Shown here piece after piece: positions 42,961 to 46,177 of a DNA stretch of 64,000 nt. This stretch comes from Candidatus Altimarinota bacterium (lineage in GTDB: Bacteria; Patescibacteriota; Gracilibacteria; JAHISY01), in assembly GCA_028690585.1 (NCBI GenBank), contig JAQVAZ010000001.1:1-64000 (forward strand), given 5' to 3'. The stretch's first letter is position 1. Each line of letters begins with the position of its first letter. Under the pieces are notes generated by a model. That model was not told where the DNA came from. It made no database searches and worked only from the letters and a program-made list of their open reading frames with translations. The translations under genes and the position numbers were made by a program.

Positions 42961-43075
42961 TTTTGCTTTTCAAAATAATTTAAATAAATTGCAATTCGTA
43001 ACTCCTGATTTTTCTTCGCATTGAATTTGCTTTATTTAAAAGCTTTGGTAAACTTCCTCGGCTTAATTTTTCCTT

Positions 43076-43482: not shown

Positions 43483-43511
43483 TTGACTTTTCTGGTTTCC
43501 TTACTTAAACT
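43483..43511 (+). promoter_or_regulatory. Internal promoter before rplC
   Basis: TTGACT (43483-43488) and TAAACT (43506-43511) with 17-base spacing, the best consensus-like promoter in the window. Predicted start near 43518, at the beginning of the structured leader. Confidence 0.6.
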
Positions 43512-43517
43512 CTCGCG

Positions 43518-43646
43518 GCTAAAAAAATTTTGTTAGCTGTGCTGCCGAGGCTCCTCAGAAAAAATCAGAGGACTGGAGAATTATCTCCACTCGATAAGAT
43601 CAAAGCAGCCTCTTCCGCCCAAGCGGATTGAATAACCTCTACCAAC
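43518..43646 (+). promoter_or_regulatory. Structured rplC leader RNA
   Basis: Hairpins: GCTAA (43518-43522)/TTAGC (43533-43537); CCTC (43553-43556)/GAGG (43568-43571); GGAGA (43575-43579)/TCTCC (43584-43588); CCGC (43615-43618)/GCGG (43623-43626). Two closing stems compete: GCTGC (43541-43545) with GCAGC (43605-43609), or GAGGCT (43547-43552) with AGCCTC (43607-43612). They share bases 43607-43609, so only one can form. This suggests an autoregulatory r-protein leader; no match to a named leader class is claimed. Confidence 0.5.
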
Positions 43647-44231
43647 ATGATTGGCATTCTAGGAAAAAAGATCGGTATGACTCGCGTAGTCGCGGACGAC
43701 GGTAGTGTGATCCCCGTCTCAGTAATTGAGTGCTCACCAAATGAGATTACTCAAATCAAGACAACTGAGAAAGATGGATATCCTGCGTTAATCCTCGGAT
43801 TTGATGCGTTGAAGAAACCGACTAAGACTAAACACTTTCGTCACATCGCTGAATTCCGTCTCGAAAAAGAAGCAGAAAAAGCGAAAGGCGACAAAGTCAC
43901 AGTTGAATCTTTCCAAGAAGTGAAGACAGTGAAGATCACAGGCACTAGCCGCGGTAAAGGTTTCGCTGGTGTAATCAAAAGATGGAATTTCTCTCGCGGT
44001 CCAGAATCTCACGGATCGCATCATCACCGCCAACCAGGTTCCGGTGCTGGTCCACGCGCTGGAGGAGGAGGTGTCCCAAAAGGTAAGAAATTTCCAGGCC
44101 GCATGGGTGGCGATCAAGTTACTAAGACTTCCACTCCACTCGTAGGAGTTGATATCGAAAAAAATCTTCTCATCGTCAAAGGCGCAATCCCAGGTGCACC
44201 AGGTGGTCTCATCCGCATTACAGCGAATTAA
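43647..44231 (+). CDS. rplC: Ribosomal protein L3 (uL3)
   Basis: 194 aa, slightly shorter than the usual 205-210. MIGILGKKIGMTRVVADDGS at the N-terminus; the extended loop SHGSHHHRQPGSGAGPRAGG reaching the peptidyl-transferase centre (HRxPGSxG motif) is present. Starts the second segment of the operon behind its own promoter and structured leader. Confidence 0.96.
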   Translation: MIGILGKKIGMTRVVADDGSVIPVSVIECSPNEITQIKTTEKDGYPALILGFDALKKPTKTKHFRHIAEFRLEKEAEKAKGDKVTVESFQEVKTVKITGTSRGKGFAGVIKRWNFSRGPESHGSHHHRQPGSGAGPRAGGGGVPKGKKFPGRMGGDQVTKTSTPLVGVDIEKNLLIVKGAIPGAPGGLIRITAN

Positions 44232-44236
44232 TCCCA

Positions 44237-44944
44237 ATGAAAGCTCCCCTCTATACACAAGCCGGCAAACAAAACGGAGACATCACTCTTCCAGAGGGTC
44301 TCTTTGGTGCCGAGATCAAACCAGATTTGATGCATCTCGCGTTGGTTCGCCAACATGCGAATGCGCGTATCTCCCCTGCTCATGTGCTTCGCCGTGGTGA
44401 AGTAGCAGGTTCTACTCGCAAAATGTATCGCCAAAAAGGCACTGGTAACGCTCGTAAGGGTGATCGTCGTGCTTCCATCCTCCGTGGTGGTGGTGCTTCT
44501 TGGGGACCTCGCAATGATAGAAACTGGGAGAAACTCATGCCAAAGAAACAACGCCGCGCAGCGCTCGCTTCTGCGCTTTCACTCAAAGCAAAAGATGGCA
44601 AGATTCTTGGCCTAGAAAGTTTTGAATTACCAAAGCCAAAGACAAAAGAATTCACTGTAGTGGCGAAAGCACTTCCAACTCACCGCAGTCTCCTCGTAAT
44701 CCACAACCGCAACGAAGCGCTGGTGAAATCTGCGCGCAACATGGAGCACACCAAAACTCTGCTTGTAGATCTTCTCAATATTCACGATCTTACAAAGTTC
44801 GATTACGTGCTTTTCGAGAAATCCGCAATCGAAGCAGCTGAGAAGATTTTCAAAGTTACCAAAAGAGCTGAAAGTACTGCTGCTAAACCTAAGAAAACAA
44901 CCGCGAAAAAAGCTACTACCAAGAAAACTGCGGGCGTCGTATAA
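44237..44944 (+). CDS. rplD: Ribosomal protein L4 (uL4), 3' end shared with tRNA-Gly
   Basis: 235 aa. Core motifs [20 protein letters not shown] and [21 protein letters not shown] (exit-tunnel loop) are normal. A Lys/Thr/Ala-rich tail of about 25 residues follows the usual end. The final codons (Ala-Gly-Val-Val-stop) are read from the same bases that form the 5' acceptor arm and adjacent bases of tRNA-Gly(TCC), 44930-44944. RNase P cleavage at the tRNA 5' end would remove the stop codon from the mRNA. Confidence 0.95.
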
Positions 44945-45005
44945 CGGTTTATTATGCTAGCCTTCCAAGCTGGAGACGGCGGTTCGATTCCGCTCGCCCG
45001 CTCCA
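44930..45005 (+). tRNA. tRNA-Gly (anticodon TCC), CCA encoded
   Basis: Acceptor GCGGGCG (44930-44936) pairs perfectly with CGCCCGC (44995-45001); discriminator T, then CCA at 45003-45005. Anticodon arm CTAGC-CTTCCAA-GCTGG, T arm GGCGG-TTCGATT-CCGCT, D loop contains GG. The D stem is weak (G-T, T-A, A-T, T-T), a form seen in some tRNA-Gly(TCC). It overlaps the last 15 bases of rplD and ends 15 bases before the rplW ATG. No separate promoter is obvious, so it is probably cut out of the ribosomal mRNA. Confidence 0.93.
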
Positions 45006-45020
45006 TCAATTAACTCCCCA

Positions 45021-45317
45021 ATGAATAACATTCACACTGTAATCGTCAAACCAATCGATACTGAGAAATCTTATCTCGGTAACGCTACTGGTTGCTACAC
45101 CTTCGCGGTGAGAGACAACGCAACCAAAACTCAGATCAAAGCAGCGATCGAAAAGTATTACGGAGTGAAAGTGAAGAGTGTAAAAACACTTTGCTGCCAA
45201 TCAAAAGCTCGCAGCGTTGGTCAGAATAAATTACTCGTAAAACGCCCAGCTTACAAAAAAGCTGTAGTCACCACGGTTGGTGCTAAATCTATCGATGTAA
45301 ATAAGATCAAAGCCTAA
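45021..45317 (+). CDS. rplW: Ribosomal protein L23 (uL23)
   Basis: 98 aa, normal length. Begins VIVKPIDTEKSYLGNATGCY (the IxxPxxTEKS motif) and has IKAAIEKYYGVKVKSVKTL. Sits at the tunnel exit, docking trigger factor and SRP. Starts 15 bases after the tRNA-Gly CCA end, so tRNA removal would leave a very short leader. The stop overlaps the rplB ATG (TAATG). Confidence 0.96.
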   Translation: MNNIHTVIVKPIDTEKSYLGNATGCYTFAVRDNATKTQIKAAIEKYYGVKVKSVKTLCCQSKARSVGQNKLLVKRPAYKKAVVTTVGAKSIDVNKIKA

Positions 45318-46177
45318 TGCCTATCAAAGTCTATAAAAAGAACGATGCTGGTCGCCGCGGTATGAGTACCGTAGATCGCTCCGCGCTTACCAAAGATCGC
45401 CCAGAATCCCGCCTCACTACTAGCCTCAATAAACAAGCTGGTAGAAATAATCGTGGCATCGTAACTTGCCGCCACCGTGGTGGAGGTGAGAAGCGCCGTT
45501 ACCGCATTATCGATTTCAAACAAATCGAAAAGGCTGGTATCCCAGGCCGCATCGAATCTCTCCAATACGATCCAAATCGTAGCGCGTGGATTGCGCTTGT
45601 TACTTATGTAGATGGTGACAAACGCTATCATCTCGCTGCTCACGGTCTCGCTGTCGGTGACAAAATTATTACTGGTGAAAAAACTAAGATCAAACCAGGT
45701 AATCGTTGCCAGATCCAACACATTCCAGCTTCTTTCGAAATTTTCAATGTAGAGCTTAAGCCAGGTAAAGGTGGTCAGATGGCTCGTAGTGCTGGCTCTC
45801 GCGCCAAAGTGGTTTCCACTGATGGAGATACTTACGCTCAGATCCAACTCCCTTCTTCAGAAATCCGTTTGGTTCCAAAAACTTGCTACGCCACGATCGG
45901 AGTAGCTGCCAATATCGATCACTCCAACATCTCTCTCGGCAAAGCTGGTAGAGTGCGCCGAATGGGTCGCCGTCCACAAGTGAGAGGTAAAGTGATGAAT
46001 CCTTGCGACCATCCACACGGAGGAGGTGAAGCGCGCAACTCGATTGGTATGAAAGCACCGAAAACTCCCTGGGGAGCACTCGCTCTCGGTGTGAAAACTC
46101 GCAACAAAAAGAAGTATTCCAAAGAGCTTATCCTTAAACGCCGCAAGCCGGGTAGATTCTCCCGCCGCACTAAGTAA
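45317..46177 (+). CDS. rplB: Ribosomal protein L2 (uL2)
   Basis: 286 aa. GRNNRGIVTCRHRGGGEKRR at the N-terminus, RIESLQYDPNRSAWIALV, and the C-terminal peptidyl-transferase segment VRGKVMNPCDHPHGGGEARN including the conserved His. Full length without extra tails. Needed for subunit association and peptide-bond formation. Confidence 0.97.
   Translation: MPIKVYKKNDAGRRGMSTVDRSALTKDRPESRLTTSLNKQAGRNNRGIVTCRHRGGGEKRRYRIIDFKQIEKAGIPGRIESLQYDPNRSAWIALVTYVDGDKRYHLAAHGLAVGDKIITGEKTKIKPGNRCQIQHIPASFEIFNVELKPGKGGQMARSAGSRAKVVSTDGDTYAQIQLPSSEIRLVPKTCYATIGVAANIDHSNISLGKAGRVRRMGRRPQVRGKVMNPCDHPHGGGEARNSIGMKAPKTPWGALALGVKTRNKKKYSKELILKRRKPGRFSRRTK

Follow-up and report, generated by a model that had tools for sequence, protein, structure and literature searches.

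A tRNA-Gly(UCC) gene sharing nucleotides and stop codon with rplD in the S10 operon of a family of Gracilibacteria

What happens to the message of a ribosomal protein gene when its stop codon lies within a tRNA, and is such an overlap a regulatory link or passively inherited? This question is raised by a 64,000-nt stretch of DNA from a Candidatus Altimarinota bacterium of the Gracilibacteria (assembly GCA_028690585.1, contig JAQVAZ010000001.1, positions 1 to 64,000, the window in the following), in which a tRNA-Gly(UCC) gene resides in sense orientation between rplD and rplW of the S10 operon (Table 1). An initial annotation, made from the letters alone, had claimed a tRNA-Gly(TCC) that lies over the rplD stop codon, shares five codons with the gene and ends 15 bases before rplW, and all of this was confirmed. 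ARAGORN identified a tRNA-Gly(tcc), and the covariance model RF00005 of Rfam matched the same positions with 57.9 bits, above the gathering score of 29. The tRNA has a complete cloverleaf with the UCC anticodon and an encoded CCA end. Its nucleotides 1-15 are the final five codons of rplD, GCG GGC GTC GTA TAA, so that the protein stop (44942-44944) is located inside the tRNA as U13-A14-A15. The rplD product matches Pfam Ribosomal_L4 with 183.6 bits, the domain covering residues 16-203 and the C-terminal remainder being a lineage-specific, lysine-rich tail with the last residues TAGVV. The S10 operon is tightly packed, neighbouring genes between rplB and rpsE being -1 to 57 nt apart, and no Shine-Dalgarno sequence was found before any of its genes, the short rplW spacer included. 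In general, nearly all tRNAs have A at position 14 and a purine at position 15; thus, any tRNA with U13 offers a UAA or UAG to a gene entering in that frame, and the frame coincides by chance in one of three cases.

Table 1. Positions of the features around the rplD/tRNA junction, in coordinates of the window.
Feature	Position	Strand	Basis or remark
Promoter-like TAAACT-TC-CTCGGC before rpsJ	43049..43062	+	Motif scan, consensus match only
Promoter-like TTGACT-17-TAAACT upstream of rplC	43483..43511	+	Consensus match only
rplC (ribosomal protein L3)	43647..44231	+	ORF, Pfam PF00297
rplD (ribosomal protein L4, 235 aa)	44237..44944	+	ORF, Pfam
Shared 15 nt, Ala-Gly-Val-Val-stop = tRNA nt 1-15	44930..44944	+	
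tRNA-Gly(UCC), CCA encoded	44930..45005	+	Anticodon 44964-44966
15-nt spacer, whole rplW mRNA leader if cut behind CCA	45006..45020	+	
rplW (ribosomal protein L23)	45021..45317	+	ORF, Pfam PF00276
rplB (ribosomal protein L2), next gene of the operon	45317..46177	+	ORF, Pfam PF03947/PF00181

The family to which the window belongs makes up its entire order and is represented by six genomes, which fall into two genera. Five of them share the identical 15-nt overlap, namely the genome of the window (G000) and four genomes of the second genus (G001, G002, G003 and G005), in which the same slot is occupied and L4 ends with TAGVV or SAGVV. In these relatives the tRNA is 96-97% identical to that of the window, compared to only 60-65% for L4. 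In the alignment, DNA identity between relatives sets in sharply at nucleotide 1 of the tRNA and ends at the CCA, while both the rplD tail in front of it and the spacer towards rplW (14, 15, 22, 53 or 130 nt) have diverged. The overlap is real and inherited, and the five cases represent one inherited event, not five. An assembly error at 44930-45005, which had been considered at the outset, is excluded since the same overlap occurs in independent assemblies of relatives. Conservation across genera, which had been named as possible support for a functional role, was found in two genera and five genomes, but within a single family and not in its sixth member, G004. None of 79 S10 loci that represent 25 other families of the class carries a tRNA in the interval from rplD to rplW, and the tRNA-Gly(UCC) genes of other families reside in ordinary places.

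The genome of the window (1.05 Mb, 48 contigs, 98.7% complete) encodes 42 tRNAs, as compiled from individual tRNA loci, and the glycine tRNAs among them have the anticodons GCC, CCC and UCC, the latter encoded solely by the gene within the S10 operon. Similarly, no other close copy of tRNA-Gly(UCC) was found outside the rplD-rplW slot in any of the six family genomes (drafts, 71-98.7% complete). The gene for the CCC glycine tRNA is 86% identical to the UCC gene and lacks a close match in all five relatives; it thus looks like a genus-specific duplicate. A reading of UGA as glycine, as known in other Gracilibacteria, was rejected for this genome, as the 42 tRNAs include none with a UCA anticodon and rplD and rplW read normally.

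We consider it probable that the overlap has been inherited, that the tRNA is made only on the S10 transcript and excised from it, and that the arrangement is tolerated rather than a tuned switch. In the family's common ancestor, a tRNA-Gly(UCC) gene would have come to lie behind rplD, and rplD would have lost its own stop, the D-arm nucleotides U13-A14-A15 taking over. The tRNA would be produced solely within the S10 operon transcript and then be released by an RNase P cut at 44929/44930 and by a 3' activity that cuts or trims behind the CCA. Each excision would take the last four codons and the stop off rplD and leave a non-stop rplC-rplD message as well as a message from rplW onward with a leader of about 15 nt. 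We infer co-transcription, excision and the non-stop product from the anatomy: if the tRNA originates only from operon mRNA, its maturation by RNase P must remove the rplD stop, as the initial annotation had argued. As the L4 domain ends at residue 203 and is followed by a variable tail, the loss of four residues is unlikely to matter; the missing stop would. In the alignment, the leader base at -1 (U) cannot pair with U73, nor that at -2 (C) with C74, and hence the stem is not extended in the way that is reported to hinder RNase P (PMC9433436). A ribosome completing L4 would melt the acceptor stem and the D-arm, so that translation and tRNA folding would be mutually exclusive on one molecule at a given time, and on a single transcript L4 would be translated first and the tRNA formed afterwards. 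This exclusion is a matter of geometry and not evidence of regulation.

It had been proposed that tRNA maturation and L4 synthesis compete, as a possible link between tRNA supply and ribosome production. According to this explanation, the overlap is kept because the two processes exclude each other, with ribosome traffic on rplD setting the yield of tRNA-Gly(UCC) and tRNA maturation limiting the output of L4. That 5' maturation severs the stop holds; that the cell makes use of the resulting competition is, in our view, unlikely. Although the tail changes freely, both genera have retained the overlap, in five genomes altogether, and within this Lys/Glu-rich tail 13-19 one-base routes per 30 codons lead to an earlier stop, which leaves room for selection. 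G004 kept a tRNA-Gly(UCC) in the slot after the original had been destroyed, and an equivalent hypothesis has been published for selB and tRNA-Sec (PMC8124441). However, the overlap is confined to one family, G004 has lost it although the tRNA did not move elsewhere, conservation does not extend beyond the tRNA itself, and the spacing to rplW varies freely between 14 and 130 nt. Furthermore, GGA is not favoured in the ribosomal protein genes (46 of 242 glycine codons, compared to 67 of 171 in six other genes) and is scarce in the window's rplD (two of 16). We know of no specific relation between L4 and tRNA-Gly. Feedback through GGA codons of rplD was rejected as well, since five genomes have one to three of them without enrichment; rplD of G005 has five GGA and two GGG, and GGA positions are only partly shared across the genomes.

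A further point against a coupling comes from ribosome rescue in two carriers of the overlap, G001 and G003. tmRNA (by model match) and SmpB are present in G000, G002, G004 and G005, whereas neither was detected in G001 and G003, which are 96-97% complete. ArfB was rejected as a back-up rescue factor: a protein of its size was found in none of the family genomes, the matches being RF1/RF2-sized only. The genes may fall into gaps of these two drafts, the cells may use a different rescue route, or non-stop rplD messages may just be broken down; a joint loss of trans-translation in the two genomes is possible.

The loss of the overlap in G004 also bears on this question. There, the original tRNA is reduced to nucleotides 1-8 and 54-76, and an insert of 206 nt holds another, intact tRNA-Gly(UCC) that is 76% identical to that of the window. 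rplD reads on from AGV to PPSSA and now stops 63 nt upstream of the inserted tRNA. Thus, the overlap can be lost, yet the operon slot still supplies the UCC tRNA, in an apparently nested arrangement seen in one draft genome of 85% completeness. The refutation named at the outset, a second intact copy elsewhere in the genome with this one decaying in relatives, gave a mixed result: the original has decayed in G004 but was replaced in the same place, and none of the six genomes has a second copy elsewhere. The G004 insert (L073:6907-7143) starts with TCCACCTTCG and ends with CGTAGGTGGA, a near-perfect inverted repeat. A repeat family behind this insertion could not be traced in the window, from which the palindrome GTCCGCC..GGCGGAC is absent.

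In a genome of another family (G024, L056:1216-1515), an ORF resembling GIY-YIG endonucleases ends inside a tRNA-Gly(UCC), likewise at nucleotides 13-15, with AGIV-UAG and in the same frame as rplD in the window. Here a tRNA supplies the stop of a protein gene independently of the rplD case, which suggests that genes may acquire a stop from tRNA-Gly(UCC) passively. Overall, a passively inherited overlap is likelier than a regulatory link, and regulation in any form appears unlikely. This includes a homeostatic switch, itself rather doubtful, in which the S10 transcript would yield L4 as long as ribosomes pass and then one tRNA-Gly(UCC) and a non-stop message. If it were true, the supply of an essential tRNA would be tied to ribosomal-protein translation through a shared stop codon.

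A promoter of the tRNA's own within rplD, from which it would be made mostly independently of the operon mRNA, had been raised as the alternative to excision and is disfavoured as well. Of the 42 tRNAs of the window's genome, 26 have the motif TAAA[AC]T in the 75 nt preceding them (3.1 in shuffled sequences). It is absent upstream of tRNA-Gly(UCC) and its five counterparts in the family, and from the final 500 nt of rplD in all six genomes, and the scan thus gave no support for a hidden promoter; 15 other tRNAs of the window's genome likewise lack an exact match. The -10 score of tRNA-Gly(UCC), 3 of 6, falls into the lowest class among the 42, no sigma-70-like site was found on the forward strand from 43511 to the tRNA, and the sequence upstream of the tRNA is not conserved. 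Promoters of the phylum are poorly known, and a near-match inside rplD, GCTAAAcc at 44882-44889, might act as a weak promoter; nevertheless, we regard independent production as improbable. The S10 operon itself has two elements resembling tRNA promoters, before rpsJ (43049) and rplC (43506). Both carry the CGGC block that follows the motif in several tRNA genes, and the one before rplC has a -35-like hexamer in addition; TTGACT-17-TAAACT is the likely source of a transcript running from rplC through rplD and the tRNA to rplW. As the tRNA lacks the usual motif and the operon has two, tRNA-Gly(UCC) most likely comes only from operon mRNA, as far as motifs can indicate. The extended signature TAAA[ACG]T-N-C[GA]GC is present in the window at 43049-43062 and 43506-43519 (rpsJ and rplC) and upstream of several tRNA genes (eight of 42, compared to 0.14 in shuffles); genes for translation perhaps have a promoter class of their own, marked by a G+C-rich discriminator.

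That the sequence is not used as a tRNA, being a pseudogene or a structural mRNA element, is hardly credible: the score of 57.9 bits is among the lower ones for tRNAs of this genome and folding of the mRNA context is unremarkable (z 0.27, which renders the junction folding energy uninformative as evidence), but this is the only UCC copy in the genome, it forms a complete cloverleaf with CCA, and it has been preserved in relatives to a far higher degree than L4.

The closest precedent for this overlap is tRNA-Sec, whose gene selC is nested in or overlaps the 3' end of selB, and for which the logic of RNase P cleavage and non-stop messages has been proposed (Mukai 2021, PMC8124441). In both systems a bacterial tRNA in sense orientation has sequence in common with the 3' end of a gene related to translation, the stop codon of that gene is located within the tRNA (in Dyella and Luteibacter for selB), a non-stop message and a downstream message with a short leader are proposed, and the arrangement is lineage-restricted, with losses and remnants (PMC8124441). 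The case described here differs from the selB/selC kind in tRNA, gene and geometry: a special tRNA that the cell can dispense with is joined there to the elongation factor dedicated to it, an essential elongator tRNA here to L4 of the S10 operon, which has no known direct functional relation to the tRNA; and the stop is at nucleotides 13-15 in a 15-nt overlap, compared to nucleotides 46-48 or a fully nested tRNA. A mixed operon of tRNA and mRNA is also formed by thrU-tyrU-glyT-thrT-tufB of Escherichia coli, in which glyT likewise encodes tRNA-Gly(UCC). Similarly, the tRNA described here would be transcribed together with a highly expressed translation gene and be released by RNase P and 3' processing. 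It lies on the same strand inside the operon, and the consensus scan showed no promoter motif of its own. In contrast, the E. coli tRNAs are located between genes and share no coding sequence, so that their excision spares the reading frames. Mitochondria have genome-length polycistronic transcripts, with stop codons completed by polyadenylation. There, too, the ends of mRNAs are set by the excision of tRNAs, which can take away the end of a coding sequence or compete with it, but the present overlap is on a bacterial chromosome and is a single case among 42 tRNAs. Armadillidium offers an example of a mitochondrial overlap of tRNA and protein gene, with tRNA-Lys in cox1 (cited in PMC8124441). 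The literature searched yielded no description of a tRNA within the S10 operon. A sole essential elongator tRNA that would be freed only by severing the stop of a core ribosomal protein lets nature itself test how one RNA is shared between RNase P and the ribosome, and would show how a cell handles the unavoidable non-stop messages of its most important operon, a question sharpened by the relatives without detectable tmRNA and SmpB.

Two minor observations concern tRNAs of this group. tRNA-Gln(UUG), tRNA-Lys(UUU) and tRNA-Ser(UGA) were not found among the 42 tRNAs of the window's genome, which has Gln(CUG), Lys(CUU) and Ser(CGA, GGA and GCU); the three are likely missing due to contig gaps, as the set would otherwise be odd. 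In one of the 79 S10 loci, from a genome of a further family (G026, L164:702-777), a tRNA-Lys(UUU) lies on the same strand directly behind rpsC, without overlap, and is followed by a terminator-like hairpin; the S10 operon of that family seems to end behind this tRNA.
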